From positions 1 through 33,585 of the forward strand of contig SYHW01000063.1 of assembly GCA_005799065.1 (NCBI GenBank): 33,585 nucleotides of DNA, in the 5' to 3' direction. The notes beneath the pieces were generated by a model, which saw only the letters and a program-made list of their open reading frames with translations, was not told where the DNA came from and ran no database searches. Numbering within the stretch: the first letter of the stretch is position 1; every line of letters starts with the position of its first letter. This DNA comes from Bacteroidota bacterium. Its GTDB lineage: Bacteria > Bacteroidota > Bacteroidia > UBA7662. Positions 3,168 through 31,163 of this stretch are shown piece after piece. The position numbers were made by a program, and so were the translations under genes.

Positions 3168-3971
3168 ATGGCCCGAATTATAGCTATTGCCAACCAAAAG
3201 GGAGGAGTCGGCAAAACAACGACAGCCATCAATTTGGCCAGCAGTCTGGCGGTCCTGGAATACCGAACCTTGTTGGTTGATGCTGATCCGCAGGCCAATG
3301 CTACTTCTGGAATCGGTATAGACCCGCGTTTGGTGAAAACGGGCTTATATGAATGTATGGTCAATGAAGTGCCCGTCCAAAATAACATCATTGAAACCGA
3401 TGTACCCAACCTTTATCTTCTGCCAGCCACCATTGATTTGGTGGGTGCGGAAATCGAATTGGTCAATCGGCCGGCTCGTGAATACATCATGCAACGGGTT
3501 TTGGCGCAGGTACGCGAGCAATATGAATTTGTGATCATCGATTGTAGTCCATCGCTCGGACTCATCACCATCAACGCACTAACGGCGGCAGATTCGGTAG
3601 TGATACCCGTTCAATGTGAGTATTTTGCCCTTGAAGGTTTGGGAAAACTACTGAACACCATCAAGATTGTTCAGAATCGCTTTCAGGAGCAGTTGCAAAT
3701 CGAAGGAATCTTGCTGACCATGTATGATCCCCGCTTACGCCTGTCTAATCAGATTGTAGACGATGTTCGCCAAAATCTTTCGGCCATTACATTCGATACG
3801 CTTATTCATCGGAATATTCGTTTAAGTGAGGCGCCCAGCTTTGGACGCTCAGCCATTATGCACGATGCGGCCAGTAAAGGGGCCATTAATTACCTGAATT
3901 TGGCTCGAGAAATTCTACAAAAAAACAACCTCACTAGAGTGGCCATCGAACAAGATCCGCATGTGAATTAA
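3168..3971 (+). CDS. parA: ParA/Soj chromosome partitioning ATPase
   Basis: [28 protein letters not shown] deviant Walker [28 protein letters not shown]. Confidence 0.96.
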
Positions 3972-3972
3972 A

Positions 3973-4857
3973 ATGAATATGAATCAAAATCGAAGAAACG
4001 CTCTTGGCCGAGGATTGGGCGCACTGTTGTCTGCAGCCGATGCAGAAAATCTGATGGTTCAGGCTACCTCCAATTCGATGATCTCGGTCCGGCAGATTGA
4101 AACCAATCCGCTTCAACCACGGACCGATTTCGATGAAAAGGCCCTCAAAGAATTATCGGCCTCTATAAAAATACACGGAGTTATACAGCCGCTTACGGTT
4201 CGCCGGTTGGCAGCAGGTCAATACCAGCTTATTTCGGGTGAGCGCAGACTCAGGGCATCCAGATTGGCTGGCTTGAAAGAGGTTCCCGCCTATGTGATTG
4301 ATGCTACCCACCAAAGCATGTTGGAAATGGCTTTGGTTGAGAATCTTCAACGGGCCGACCTCAACCCGATGGAAATTGCCATCAGCTTGAGTCGACTGCA
4401 AGAGGAGTGCCAAGTCATTCATGAAGAATTGGGTGATCGAGTAGGAAAGGATCGAAGTACGGTCACCAATTACATGAGGTTGTTGAAGTTGCCTCCAGAA
4501 ATACAATCGGGAATACGCGACGGAAAATTGGATATGGGACATGCCAAGGCGCTCATGGGCCTTGATCGGGTAGAGGTGCTCTTGGAAGTATATCGTCGTG
4601 CAGTGGCGCAAAAAATGAGTGTTCGGCAACTCGAGGCTTTGGTTAAATCCATGAAGGAAGGCAGTAGCCGTAAAAAATCAGCCCTTCATTCGCCGACCAC
4701 CCCTTCCGAATACCGGATCAGTCTAGAGCAACTGAAACGACAATTTGAATCAGCCGTACAAATCAAGGTTAATGGCAAGGGTGGAGGGGAAATCAGTATT
4801 CCCTTCAGCGACCCTTCCGACTTGAATCGGCTGCTCGATATGCTTTTAGAGGCATGA
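3973..4857 (+). CDS. parB: ParB/Spo0J chromosome partitioning CTPase/DNA-binding protein
   Basis: ALGRGLGALL N-terminal motif, NPLQPRTDFDEKALKELSASI, GERRLRASRLAGL, HTH region; directly follows parA. Confidence 0.96.
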   Translation: MNMNQNRRNALGRGLGALLSAADAENLMVQATSNSMISVRQIETNPLQPRTDFDEKALKELSASIKIHGVIQPLTVRRLAAGQYQLISGERRLRASRLAGLKEVPAYVIDATHQSMLEMALVENLQRADLNPMEIAISLSRLQEECQVIHEELGDRVGKDRSTVTNYMRLLKLPPEIQSGIRDGKLDMGHAKALMGLDRVEVLLEVYRRAVAQKMSVRQLEALVKSMKEGSSRKKSALHSPTTPSEYRISLEQLKRQFESAVQIKVNGKGGGEISIPFSDPSDLNRLLDMLLEA

Positions 4858-5453
4858 TCAACCATCCAACATGGTCGTTTTTTTTGGTGCTGTTCTGCTG
4901 GTGTTGTTCTACGCCTGTCGCTGCACAACAATCCTCTGGAGTGCCATCTGATTCGCTTTATCGCATTCGGGTTAAGCAGGCCACGCACAGATCGCTCTTG
5001 ATTCCGGGCTGGGGACAAGCCTACAACCGCAGTTATTGGAAGATTCCTGTTGTTTATGGGCTCATCGGATTTTCAGGTGCGCAGGCATCTAACTATCACA
5101 AACAGTACATTCGCTTCCGAGATGCATACCGTATAAGGGTCGATGGAGATACTTCAACAATCGATGAATATGCGCTTACCCAAACCAATGCTTTATTAAA
5201 GAGCAATCGGGATGCGTTTCGACAAGGTCGTGACACTTTTGTTCTTCTCACCCTTGGCTCCTATCTATTGCAGCTTGTTGATGCAGCTGTTGATGCCCAT
5301 TTGAGTTCTTTTACGGTGGGCGACGATTTGAGCTTGCAGTGGGATGTGGCCCCAGCCCGGTGGCTTGGCGGCCCCGGTGGCCACAGTGGAAATGCAGGTT
5401 TGGGTTTTGGAAATGGAGTCGGTTTACAACTAGGTCTTGTATATCATTTTTAA
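4854..5453 (+). CDS. DUF5683 domain-containing protein
   Basis: Signal peptide then ATHRSLLIPGWGQAYNRSYWKIPVVYG ... VDAAVDAHLSSFTVGDDLS, as in DUF5683; 4-nt ATGA overlap with parB. Confidence 0.82.
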   Translation: MINHPTWSFFLVLFCWCCSTPVAAQQSSGVPSDSLYRIRVKQATHRSLLIPGWGQAYNRSYWKIPVVYGLIGFSGAQASNYHKQYIRFRDAYRIRVDGDTSTIDEYALTQTNALLKSNRDAFRQGRDTFVLLTLGSYLLQLVDAAVDAHLSSFTVGDDLSLQWDVAPARWLGGPGGHSGNAGLGFGNGVGLQLGLVYHF

Positions 5454-26876: not shown

Positions 26877-28694
26877 TTAGGCGTCCACCAACGACAGACT
26901 GCGCTCCAAAAATCGGCTTAATTCAGCCCCCTTGAGCATGCCTTGAGCCAACAGTGCAAGGTCGTAGCTGTGCCTTATGAGGGACTGTTTTTTGTCTGGA
27001 TCCAGACATCCTGCGATGTGCAGCAAATGAGGATGGGCGGTGTTCAATACCACATCATAAGTTTCCGGCATCTGACCCATGCCAAACGGATGCCCTCCTG
27101 TGGCGGCCATTTCGTTCATGCGCCGCATAAACTCATTTCTGGTGATCATGACGGGTAGATCGTCGGCCGATAATGTAGCCGTTGTTACATTACGTTTTTC
27201 ATCACCCACGGTAAGGGTAAACAACTCTTTGATATCCGTTTCTTGCGCCTCGGATAGGACAGAAGGGGTGTTCTGCTCCTGCGGGATGAGTTGTTCGATG
27301 GGTTCTGAATCTACCCGCTTGAAGCGCACTTTTTCCAATTTCGACTCCTGATGGTTAAGGAAATGGCTGTCGATAACGCTGCCCATTTTAAGAACATCAT
27401 AACCCCGTCGCGTGGCGGCCTGAACATATGCATATTGCAATTCGGGATCTGATGTGTAAAGTATGACCAGGTTTCCGTCTTTGTCGCGTTGGTTGAGTTC
27501 AACCATTTTCTGATAGGCCTCCCAGTCGCGCTGATCGCCGTCGGTACTCGTATACAAACAGAAACCTGAGGAACGCTCGGCAAACTTCTCATCGCTGATC
27601 ATGCCATATTTTACAAATAATTCAAGGTGCTCCCATTTTCCACGGAATCCCTCTGCGTCGTCGCGGTACATTTCTGCTAGTTTGTCGGCTACTTTCTTGC
27701 TGATGTGGCTGTTGATCTTCCGCACATTCGAATCAGTTTGCAAGAAGCTTCTTGAAACATTGAGGGGGATGTCGGGTGAATCCAAGACACCATGCAACAG
27801 CCGCAGATAATCGGGAACAATATCCTCAACAGAATCGGTAATGAAGACCTGTCTGCTATACAGCTGAATCTTATTGCGACTCGGTTCAAATTCCGCTTTT
27901 AGTTTCGGGAAATACAAGATCCCTGTTAGATTGAAGGGGTAGTCGACGTTCAGGTGAATATGAAACAAGGGTTTCTCAGCCAGAGGATAAAGTTCTCCGT
28001 AAAATTTTTGATAGTCCTCATCGATCAATTCGGATGGTTTTTTGGTCCACAATGGCACTGTGGAATTGATTACTTCCTCCTCCAATTGAATGGGCACGGG
28101 TAGAAATCGGCAATATTTGCGCAGAATTTCGCGTAGTTTCCAGGTTTCTAAGTAATCGAGGGCATCTTCGCTCAGGTGAAGGATTACGTCCGAGCCCCTA
28201 TCTGTCCTTTGACCTGCACCAATTTCAAATTCTGTGCTCCCGTCGCATGTCCACCGAACCGGAGTAGCCCCATCTTTAAAGGAAAGGCTTTCAATCTCAA
28301 CTGAATCGGCTACCATAAATGCCGAATAGAACCCAAGTCCGAATGCCCCAATCATGTTGCTGTCCGTCTTTTCGCGGTACTGCTCCATGAACTCAGTCGC
28401 ACCACTAAAGGCGATTTGATTGATGTATTTATCAATCTCCTCGCCCGTCATTCCGATGCCTCTGTCTGAAATGGTGATGGTTTTCTTCTCTTTGTCGATC
28501 TTCACCCAGACCGAGGTGTCGCCTGTTTCACCTTTAAATTCACCGATAGAAGCTAATGCATTCAACTTTTGTGTTGCATCGACCGCATTACTGACCAATT
28601 CCCTCAAAAATACTTCCTGATTGGAATAAAGGGATTTTTTGATGATTGGGAAAATGTTTCCCGTATTGACCGAAATATGTCCTTTTTTTTCCAT
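26877..28694 (-). CDS. htpG: Molecular chaperone HtpG (Hsp90)
   Basis: LYSNQEVFLRELVSNAVDATQKL, ISDRGIGMTGEEI, IGAFGLGFYSAFMVAD, LNVSRSFLQTD. Confidence 0.96.
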   Translation of the reverse strand: MEKKGHISVNTGNIFPIIKKSLYSNQEVFLRELVSNAVDATQKLNALASIGEFKGETGDTSVWVKIDKEKKTITISDRGIGMTGEEIDKYINQIAFSGATEFMEQYREKTDSNMIGAFGLGFYSAFMVADSVEIESLSFKDGATPVRWTCDGSTEFEIGAGQRTDRGSDVILHLSEDALDYLETWKLREILRKYCRFLPVPIQLEEEVINSTVPLWTKKPSELIDEDYQKFYGELYPLAEKPLFHIHLNVDYPFNLTGILYFPKLKAEFEPSRNKIQLYSRQVFITDSVEDIVPDYLRLLHGVLDSPDIPLNVSRSFLQTDSNVRKINSHISKKVADKLAEMYRDDAEGFRGKWEHLELFVKYGMISDEKFAERSSGFCLYTSTDGDQRDWEAYQKMVELNQRDKDGNLVILYTSDPELQYAYVQAATRRGYDVLKMGSVIDSHFLNHQESKLEKVRFKRVDSEPIEQLIPQEQNTPSVLSEAQETDIKELFTLTVGDEKRNVTTATLSADDLPVMITRNEFMRRMNEMAATGGHPFGMGQMPETYDVVLNTAHPHLLHIAGCLDPDKKQSLIRHSYDLALLAQGMLKGAELSRFLERSLSLVDA

Positions 28695-28724
28695 GATGTT
28701 TTTTACTCACATATCGGCAACTAC

Positions 28725-28742
28725 TTTGCCACAATTGGCAAA
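28725..28742. promoter_or_regulatory. Perfect inverted repeat TTTGCCA-CAAT-TGGCAAA upstream of htpG; possible operator
   Basis: 7-bp arms, 4-bp spacer, in the 78-bp gap between the upstream kinase-like gene and htpG; no adjacent T-tract suggesting a terminator. Confidence 0.4.
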
Positions 28743-28772
28743 CTGACATTTTGTCGCATCACAAGCCGAATT

Positions 28773-29891
28773 TCACACCGCAAAACGATGCTGTTGCGAC
28801 AAAAGGTTCGGAATTCGTATCTGAAAGGTAGACCCTTTACCGACCTCACTCGTCAAGTGGATGTCGCCCCCCATTTGTTTCACAGTCTCTCGGACAATAA
28901 ACAAGCCCATTCCATAGGCATCTCCGGTTTCGCTGCGTTCAAATAAGCGGAACACACGTTCTTGCTGGGTTATCGCAATGCCCCTTCCATAATCGGTCAC
29001 TTCCAATTGAACAATGTCCGCTTGAATTTGGGCGGAAAGCGTTATTACTGCAGGTGCTTGGCCAAATTCAGCGCTGCGCGCGGCATTATTGAGCAATTCA
29101 AGTAAAACCATTTTGATTTTTTCGTAATCTCCGATCCAAATGCTGTTTTCAATCACTTCGACACGAATCCGATCATGCTCCAGGCCGTAAACTGCACAAA
29201 TCGCGTTGATCAGAAAGCGAAACAATCCATGGGCTTCCAGATTTTGGGGAAGAAGTTCCACCCGACTTCCCCGATATAAATCCCGAAAACGTGCTCTTCC
29301 GGAGCCCAATATGGTCAATCGTCTGAGAAGAAAATGGGCAAGCTCCTGCGCTGGCATTGTGTCTTGGTGTTCGACTACGGACCTGCAAAGGGCTTCTAAC
29401 TGTATGACAGGCTCGAAAAATTCAGTATCTATTTTATAAGTGAGCCAATCTCGAGTAGACCTCGACGTTTCAAGCTCTTGACGGATGGCTCCCATTTGCA
29501 TGTTGTTCCATGTTAATTCATAGGCGCGCTGAATGATGGAACGCAATGTCGGTACTAAATAAGGCGTTCGCACGGAACGGAATAAGGAAGCCATTAATGG
29601 ATTTCCATCAACTAATCCTGTATCCGCTTCTGCATGAAGCAGAATGCACTGACTTGATGAAAATTTCTGTTGCACCTCCGATATCAAATCAAATCCAGAG
29701 GCTTTTGCGAGCCGTAGGTGGGTGAGCAATACACAACCCGGACGGTTCTGCAGTACCTGAAGAGCCAAAGAAGCATCTGAGCAGGTAAACAGCTCGAAAA
29801 ACGATTGAAAATGTTCGCGAAACGTATTGCGTCCCGCTTCGAGTTCATCCACATATACAACCGGTATAAGGTGGGGGAACAAGCTGGTCAT
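28773..29891 (-). CDS. Degenerate hybrid sensor: pseudo-receiver plus HisKA-like region lacking His plus HATPase_c
   Basis: Receiver-like N-terminus (PVVYVDELEAGRNTF...CVLLTHLRLAKASGFDLI) and GHKL ATPase motifs (ELLNNAARSA N-box, VTDYGRGI, RVFRLFER, YGMGLFIVRETV, GKGSTFQIRIP). Confidence 0.82.
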   Translation of the reverse strand: MTSLFPHLIPVVYVDELEAGRNTFREHFQSFFELFTCSDASLALQVLQNRPGCVLLTHLRLAKASGFDLISEVQQKFSSSQCILLHAEADTGLVDGNPLMASLFRSVRTPYLVPTLRSIIQRAYELTWNNMQMGAIRQELETSRSTRDWLTYKIDTEFFEPVIQLEALCRSVVEHQDTMPAQELAHFLLRRLTILGSGRARFRDLYRGSRVELLPQNLEAHGLFRFLINAICAVYGLEHDRIRVEVIENSIWIGDYEKIKMVLLELLNNAARSAEFGQAPAVITLSAQIQADIVQLEVTDYGRGIAITQQERVFRLFERSETGDAYGMGLFIVRETVKQMGGDIHLTSEVGKGSTFQIRIPNLLSQQHRFAV

Positions 29892-29938
29892 ATGTTTGGA
29901 AGCGCGATATTATGAAAAAAATCAAAGAAATTGTTTTC

Positions 29939-29946
29939 TATTTTTG
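29939..29946 (+). promoter_or_regulatory. Bacteroidetes -7 box TATTTTTG for thiolase gene
   Basis: Matches TAnnTTTG; 5 nt before the ATG at 29952. Confidence 0.5.
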
Positions 29947-29951
29947 CGTTC

Positions 29952-31163
29952 ATGTCAAAAATACAGCCCGTTTATTTGGTCGACGCGTGTCGCACTCCCA
30001 TTGGAAAACTGGGGGGCTCACTGTCTAGGGTTCGTCCAGACGATCTCGCATCAATCAGTATCCGGGCTCTCTTGGCAAGAAATCCCAGTTTTGATCCGAA
30101 TGTGGTTGAGGATGTTGTGCTTGGCGCGGCCAATCAGGCCGGAGAAGATAACCGCAACGTAGCCCGAATGGCAGCGCTTTTGGCCGGACTTCCTGTAGGG
30201 GTGGGCGGGGTGACGGTGAATCGACTCTGTGCCAGCGGACTACAAGCACTAATCGATGCCTACCGGGCCATTGCACTGGGTGAAGGCGAGGCTTATATAG
30301 CAGGTGGTGTTGAAAGCATGACCCGTGCACCTTGGGTGATGGCCAAACCGGATCAGGCGTTTTCCCGAAAAATCGAAGCCTATGACACAACTTTGGGTTG
30401 GCGGTTCACCAACACGGCATTAGCAGATCGCTACCATCCCTACAGCATGGGTGAGACGGCAGAGAATGTGGCCGAACGGTATCGAATTAGCCGCGAGCAA
30501 CAGGACGAGTTTGCTTATTTGTCGCAATCAAATTATGCGCGTGCAGCCGCTGATGGCCAATTTCAATCCGAATTAGTGCCGGTGGAGGTCAAGTTTGAAA
30601 AAGCGTCCAGCAGAATGTTTGATGTAGATGAACATCCCAGATTCAGCAGCCTGGAGCAACTGTCTGCGCTCAAACCTGCCTTTCGAAAAGATGGTAGTGT
30701 TACGGCTGGAAATAGCTCGGGCATGAATGATGGTGCTGCTTGCGTTCTACTGGTGAATGAGTCCGCATTAAAGACCCACTCATTAACCCCATTGGCCCGT
30801 GTGATGGGTGCAGCTGCGGTTGGCGTAGATCCGGCCTATATGGGTATTGGTCCCGTACCGGCCATCCAGCGATTGTTAAACCGTACGGGAATCAAAATCA
30901 GTGACGTTGATCTTTTCGAATTGAACGAGGCTTTCGCGGCTCAAGCCGTGGCCTGTATTCAAGAATTACAAATAGATCCCCGCCGTGTCAATAAAAGGGG
31001 AGGGGCCATTGCATTGGGTCATCCATTGGGCTGTTCCGGTGCACGAATCACCACCACACTCGTGCACCAAATGAAGGACGATTCTGCTGTGCGATATGGT
31101 GTGGCAGCACTTTGTGTGGGCGTCGGACAAGGATTAGCCATAATGCTCGAAAATTGCGCTTGA
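29952..31163 (+). CDS. Thiolase / acetyl-CoA C-acyltransferase, PcaF/PaaJ-like
   Basis: VDACRTPIGKLGGSLSRVRPDDLA, GAANQAGEDNRNVARMAALLAGLP, VNRLCASGLQA, ELNEAFAAQA, GGAIALGHPLGCSGAR. ATG at 29952 preferred over the upstream 29931 start, which lies 5' of a promoter-like box. Confidence 0.93.
   Translation: MSKIQPVYLVDACRTPIGKLGGSLSRVRPDDLASISIRALLARNPSFDPNVVEDVVLGAANQAGEDNRNVARMAALLAGLPVGVGGVTVNRLCASGLQALIDAYRAIALGEGEAYIAGGVESMTRAPWVMAKPDQAFSRKIEAYDTTLGWRFTNTALADRYHPYSMGETAENVAERYRISREQQDEFAYLSQSNYARAAADGQFQSELVPVEVKFEKASSRMFDVDEHPRFSSLEQLSALKPAFRKDGSVTAGNSSGMNDGAACVLLVNESALKTHSLTPLARVMGAAAVGVDPAYMGIGPVPAIQRLLNRTGIKISDVDLFELNEAFAAQAVACIQELQIDPRRVNKRGGAIALGHPLGCSGARITTTLVHQMKDDSAVRYGVAALCVGVGQGLAIMLENCA

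Follow-up and report, generated by a model that had tools for sequence, protein, structure and literature searches.

An apparent REC-DHp-HATPase pseudokinase, sole remnant of an ancestral operon, upstream of htpG in a Bacteroidota genus

The gene and its neighbors

The window considered here, that is, the whole stretch of 33,585 nucleotides that was analyzed, contains an intact open reading frame with an ATG start (28773..29891, minus strand) that encodes a REC-DHp-HATPase protein of 372 aa, called the pseudokinase in the following sections. The coordinates given in the earlier note were correct, and the gene lies on the minus strand, its plus-strand reading being broken by many stops. The protein consists of a pseudo-receiver domain (residues 8-125; 29517..29870, minus strand) that aligns without gaps to its intact relatives, a DHp region (residues 126-215; 29247..29516, minus strand) whose register against the relatives is likewise ungapped, and a linker followed by a HATPase_c domain (residues 216-365; 28797..29246, minus strand) that has a Pfam match and keeps the ATP motifs.

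The HATPase region is the only part placed confidently by the Pfam, NCBIfam and PDB searches. HATPase_c matches residues 254-361 (Pfam, 4.6e-21, above the cut-off), Response_reg matches residues 13-90 (0.0028, below the cut-off), and HisKA gives no Pfam match; the solved structures that match by sequence cover almost solely the HATPase region. AlphaFold2, run on two sequences only (the window protein and L031), gave a mean pLDDT of 37 and a pTM of 0.26, too low for the model to be interpreted.

The downstream neighbor is htpG (Hsp90; 26877..28694, minus strand), which also lies beside the intact REC-kinases of sister genera. The gap between the two genes is exactly 78 bp and they share a strand, as had been claimed. 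On the other side, a conserved and divergently oriented gene for a thiolase (acetyl-CoA acetyltransferase-like; 29931..31163, plus strand) bounds the deleted operon discussed below on its far side.

Loss of the phosphotransfer residues

Orthologs of the pseudokinase occur in the same genus in genomes G001 (95% identity) and G002 (62%), both full length, and in G003 as a contig-end fragment of 129 aa (77% identity, receiver only); with the genome of the window (G000), the genus sample comprises four genomes, one of which contributes a fragment only. The residue columns were read from an alignment of 48 sequences (45 relatives across the class and the three full-length genus members), which is gap-free over the relevant segments.

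The replacement of the receiver phospho-acceptor Asp by His58 (codon 29718..29720, minus strand), proposed in the earlier note, was borne out, as the column is Asp in 45 of the 45 relatives and His, His and Leu in the full-length genus members, with the Leu in G002; the G003 fragment has His at this position. The receiver Lys, also reported as lost, is Thr109 in the window protein (codon 29565..29567, minus strand), with Thr in all four genus members and Lys in 45/45 relatives. To these is added a loss missing from the earlier note, that of the receiver Thr, since column 86 is T or S in 44 of 45 relatives and His in the genus. The acidic pair at residues 15-16 (D15 and E16) is kept, as had been seen, and the prolines that follow the Lys position and occupy H+5 are still present. 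In the dimerization helix, the position of the phosphorylatable H-box His (codon 156; 29424..29426, minus strand) does hold Thr, in all three full-length genus members, against His in 44/45 relatives; the H-box reads YKIDTEFFEPV in the ungapped alignment, where the relatives have SASHDLRSPL.

The ortholog alignment, which had been named as a check, indicated that the same-genus orthologs (L002/L031 and L003, and the fragment L004 for the receiver) share the losses. T156 is conserved in both full-length orthologs, whereas H58 is not; its replacement by Leu in G002 leaves the His at position 58 without an evident special role. The alignments contain no conserved His elsewhere in the dimerization helix and no alternative receiver Asp, either of which would have spoken against the first reading.

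Profile-profile comparison reproduced the same ungapped register, with probabilities of 99.1% for the receiver, 99.9% for the ATPase domain and 100% for the full length. The DHp segment by itself gave a probability of 20% (E 0.001), ungapped and in the same register; because this partial profile is weak, the assignment of Thr156 is based on the ungapped register over the full length and on the flanking Y152 and P161. The Asp, Thr and Lys that define a receiver are thus represented by H58, H86 and T109 in a domain whose Pfam match is below the cut-off, and its close profile match to the intact family receivers, with the catalytic residues missing, identifies it as a pseudo-receiver. Similarly, in place of the H-box His of a histidine kinase the protein has Thr156, with no HisKA match. 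Judged by these residues, the pseudokinase is very probably unable to perform His-Asp phosphotransfer.

The ancestral operon

Directly upstream of htpG, the sister genera within the family (G005, G006, G008 and G010) encode an intact-looking REC-HisKA-HATPase kinase; in G005, a 136-aa response regulator lies between the two. Ahead of this kinase come a 7TMR-DISM sensor histidine kinase, a protein that we take to be GNAT-like (it was recognized by eye, with no significant Pfam match) and a ThiF-like protein. The flanks in G008 equal those of the window, with the thiolase on the far side, as read in this one sister locus (L041), and with purH and mreB after htpG. The window thiolase is 71% identical over 101 aa to its G008 counterpart, and the identities to the sister-genus flanks are 64-67% for HtpG, 49-54% for PurH and 85% for MreB, whereas the pseudokinase is 21-23% identical to the syntenic REC-kinases. 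As the flanking proteins are still similar, the REC-kinase must have changed exceptionally fast.

In the genus of the window, whose members have small genomes, the interval between the thiolase gene and htpG holds the degenerate REC-kinase alone. Genome-wide searches of the four genus genomes found no cassette sensor kinase (generic HATPase matches only), no GNAT partner and no second REC-kinase of the family; the loss of ThiF was read at the locus. In the sequence tree, the genus branch has a length of 4.04 changes per column, where the median end branch has 0.35, and it falls outside all others at the root of the drawing; placement of the genus by this tree was rejected, and orthology therefore rests on synteny. 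By this gene order, the pseudokinase is all that survives of an ancestral ThiF/GNAT/7TM sensor kinase/REC-kinase operon, in which the partners were probably lost first and the sites afterward.

This cassette is also common in other parts of the class, and in a phylum-wide sample of 396 genomes, strong matches to the REC-kinase family were found within this class only. The class operon (L035-L043 and L103-L119; e.g., L041, 1396-6453) encodes the ThiF-like protein, the GNAT-like protein, the 7TMR-DISM kinase and the REC-HisKA-HATPase kinase. In some copies a single-domain response regulator is added, along with a divergent solo receiver whose sequence ends in NEQLEFLLRQKLLS. The operon is possibly a module that combines signal synthesis and sensing, and no description of a ThiF/7TMR-DISM operon was found in the open-licence PMC papers searched.

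The intact kinases L035-L043 resemble the pseudokinase in domain order, length and flanks, the sister-genus members being orthologous by synteny and L041 sharing the thiolase and htpG on its two sides. They differ in that the D, T, K and H residues and the partner genes are present, and they are mutually 37-78% identical (pairs compared) against 19-25% to the pseudokinase.

Independent erosion of single domains was also observed in this family. L119 (G303, 3909-5015) keeps the receiver Asp and Lys, has Asn for the H-box His and has lost the ATP motifs, with the partner genes present. L118 (G290, 908-2134) has lost the receiver acidic pair and Thr and keeps the His and the ATP site; it has no neighboring partner genes, no GNAT partner was found in the 84%-complete genome of G290, and its receiver may have decayed in parallel, likewise after its partners were lost. 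Degeneration in the REC-kinase family is thus not unique to the window genus; the double loss with the ATP site kept was not seen elsewhere among 395 class genomes sampled.

Domain conservation and the ATP site

Ten residues of the ATP site (N269, D300, G302, G304, F314, F317, G327, G329, G351 and G353) are present in all three full-length genus members. The earlier description of the ATP motifs as intact holds for the Mg-Asn (N269) and for the G1, F, G2 and G3 motifs, and was overstated for the N-box, in which the first Asn is E265 (Gln in G002) and the Lys/Arg is R272 (Cys in G002). The protein therefore has the HATPase_c domain with the N, G1, F and G2 boxes that is expected of a histidine kinase, with the N-box partly altered. 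The two altered positions sit near catalysis, and their changes are compatible with nucleotide binding without phosphotransfer; the motifs as a whole suggest that the pseudokinase binds ATP.

Compared with the family, the genus has kept 18 of 29 conserved columns in the ATPase domain and 12 of 46 in the receiver and DHp regions, and 22 of these 46 carry a new residue that is fixed in the genus (Fisher p about 0.003 each for kept and for replaced columns, the columns being treated as independent though they are not). Within the genus, all three domains are constrained, with the receiver and DHp regions no less conserved than the ATPase part; between G000 and G002 the identity is 56.7% for the ATPase domain versus 67.5% for the receiver. 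Because the ATPase domain is not the best conserved, selection may act mainly on a function other than nucleotide binding. These figures could be taken to mean that the pseudokinase binds one of the remaining histidine kinases or response regulators as a decoy or heterodimer partner, with ATP playing no role, since the receiver and DHp regions are domains for protein contact, are better conserved within the genus than the ATPase domain and carry many of the substitutions fixed in the genus. However, the residues of the ATP site have been selectively retained relative to other family-conserved positions, and we regard this explanation as unlikely.

The retained ATP motifs have also to be weighed as a sign that the protein is still an ATP-consuming GHKL enzyme, either an ATPase or a Ser/Thr kinase of the SpoIIAB/BCKDK type acting on another protein (or on T156). 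Some ATP-hydrolyzing GHKL proteins carry Glu at the N-box Asn, which Glu265 resembles; T156 is conserved in the full-length orthologs, and HATPase_c_2 scores just above its cut-off (28.5 vs 27.4). Yet HATPase_c far outscores HATPase_c_2 (75.8 vs 28.5 bits), which drops below the cut-off in G002, where Glu265 is Gln. Furthermore, the window ORFs include no substrate or neighbor gene of an anti-sigma or dehydrogenase system and, specifically, no anti-anti-sigma partner as would go with a SpoIIAB/RsbW-type kinase, so that an enzyme of this kind is decidedly unlikely.

A phosphatase-only role was considered as well. In HisKA phosphatases, Thr or Asn is expected at H+4, where the pseudokinase has Glu160, and this role is therefore not favored.

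htpG and its promoter

The 78-bp gap contains a sigma54-type -24/-12 element, TGTCAG...TGGCAAAGTAGTTGC (28717..28748, minus strand), with an upstream TGACA/TGTCA repeat. The pattern TGTCAG-N-TGGCAAAGTAGTTGC has a single match in G000 and recurs before htpG in G001 and G002; TGGCAC-N5-TTGCA precedes htpG in G006 with a similar layout, which G008 and G010 show in looser form. The element with its upstream repeat recurs before htpG across the family (L032, L033, L035, L037 and L041). G001-G003 have a sigma54 gene, which was not found in G000, whose genome is 85% complete. As htpG is among the sigma54 promoters in Flavobacterium psychrophilum (PMC9723704), a promoter of its own is to be expected for htpG in this phylum, and the element in the gap would start htpG transcription separately, after the pseudokinase gene.

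The earlier note had read the adjacency as a possible link to stress control, in which the pseudokinase would regulate htpG by co-transcription or would act as a stress sensor on HtpG or its promoter. The short gap, the common strand and the persistence of the adjacency in three genus genomes (in the fourth, the contig stops short of htpG) and in the sister genera are in keeping with it. This link was not supported, however: the adjacency is common to fully intact REC-kinases, hence already existed before function was lost, and tells little about htpG, which moreover has its own sigma54-type element in the gap. Outside the family, the cassette is not beside htpG in the loci read, and the REC-kinase seems to be wholly absent from genus g2. 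Regulation of htpG is accordingly very unlikely.

Selection on the pseudokinase gene

The dN/dS of the pseudokinase is 0.18 between G000 and G001 (dS 0.14, unsaturated) and about 0.14 to G002, where synonymous sites are near saturation. The neighboring truA gives equal values (0.175 for G000-G001 and 0.144 to G002), indicating that the pseudokinase gene is not decaying. The G001 ortholog (L032, 3313-4443) carries a 12-bp in-frame, duplication-like insertion (ASGIASG) in a receiver loop.

That the gene is a functionless remnant of the deleted operon might be argued from the disappearance of all operon partners, the long branch of 4.04 changes per column and the insertion in the G001 receiver, but a frame open in three species, dN/dS of about 0.14-0.18 and constraint on all three domains largely refute it and make it scarcely credible. 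These values indicate that the pseudokinase is still functional, having settled under purifying selection after its divergence. Orthology by synteny, the missing His and this dN/dS range together place it among the pseudo-histidine kinases on sequence evidence.

Proposed function and known systems

The ancestral REC-kinase, judged by the intact residues of its relatives, was presumably phosphorylated on its receiver and autophosphorylated on the H-box His. In the window genus, the neighboring genes were deleted and the receiver Asp, Thr and Lys and the H-box His were lost, with the nucleotide-binding residues retained. The present protein would then be a folded, probably dimeric pseudokinase that does not transfer phosphate, in which ATP or ADP occupancy of the HATPase domain may reset the arrangement of the DHp and pseudo-receiver, and these two regions may serve as protein-binding surfaces that modulate a partner. 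A plausible partner would be found among the few kinases and response regulators that remain; G000 has seven receiver matches (five above the cut-off) and G006 has 28, and the few two-component proteins left in this lineage are the obvious candidates.

The reading of the protein as a pseudokinase or ATP-binding switch, first suggested in the earlier note, gained support from the ortholog alignment, the syntenic intact relatives and purifying selection. It draws on the genus-wide losses at the covered positions as against near-invariance in 45 relatives, on the preferential retention of the ATP-site residues, on purifying selection and on the precedent of DivL. We infer the inability to transfer phosphate, ATP binding, dimerization, the switch and any partner from these comparisons, and consider that a dimeric pseudokinase acting as an ATP-bound allosteric adaptor or switch, DivL-like in principle, has about an even chance of being right. 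That it is a genus-specific ATP-gated regulator, a switch based purely on nucleotide binding that connects to other signaling proteins and uses its dead receiver and dead dimerization helix as surfaces for input and output, is a more tentative proposal and on the doubtful side.

DivL of Caulobacter lacks the H-box His, has neither kinase nor phosphatase activity, and senses a response regulator; its ATP binding is weak despite a recognizable domain (PMC4211667). The likeness lies in a histidine-kinase architecture with the H-box His replaced and the transmitter reused as an interaction module, the absence of kinase and phosphatase activity being demonstrated for DivL and probable for the pseudokinase. 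DivL differs in containing PAS domains, having Tyr at the site and working with DivK and CckA, whereas the pseudokinase has Thr at the site, a dead receiver fused N-terminally and its ATP motifs kept; the sequence match between the two (4q20) spans residues 251-362 only. The pseudo-receiver likewise resembles other bacterial pseudo-receivers, which in the relevant part of a 2025 review have the receiver fold without D, T and K and with the acidic pair kept (PMC12632262). Most of those covered in that part belong to response regulators or to hybrid kinases whose HisKA works, such as ShkA and CikA, unlike the pseudokinase, in which the attached transmitter has also lost its His.

Significance

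According to the same review (PMC12632262), key residues are missing from about 6% of bacterial receivers and from 0.9% of HisKA domains, and the mechanisms of bacterial pseudo-receivers are a mystery. Pseudo-receivers and pseudo-histidine kinases are recognized, but mostly one at a time. At the present locus, both losses occur in one protein, the sister genera still have an intact-looking ortholog in that chromosomal slot, and the accompanying event, the deletion of the partner genes, is visible. The locus therefore offers a clean before-and-after pair for testing how a phosphotransfer protein may become a non-catalytic switch.
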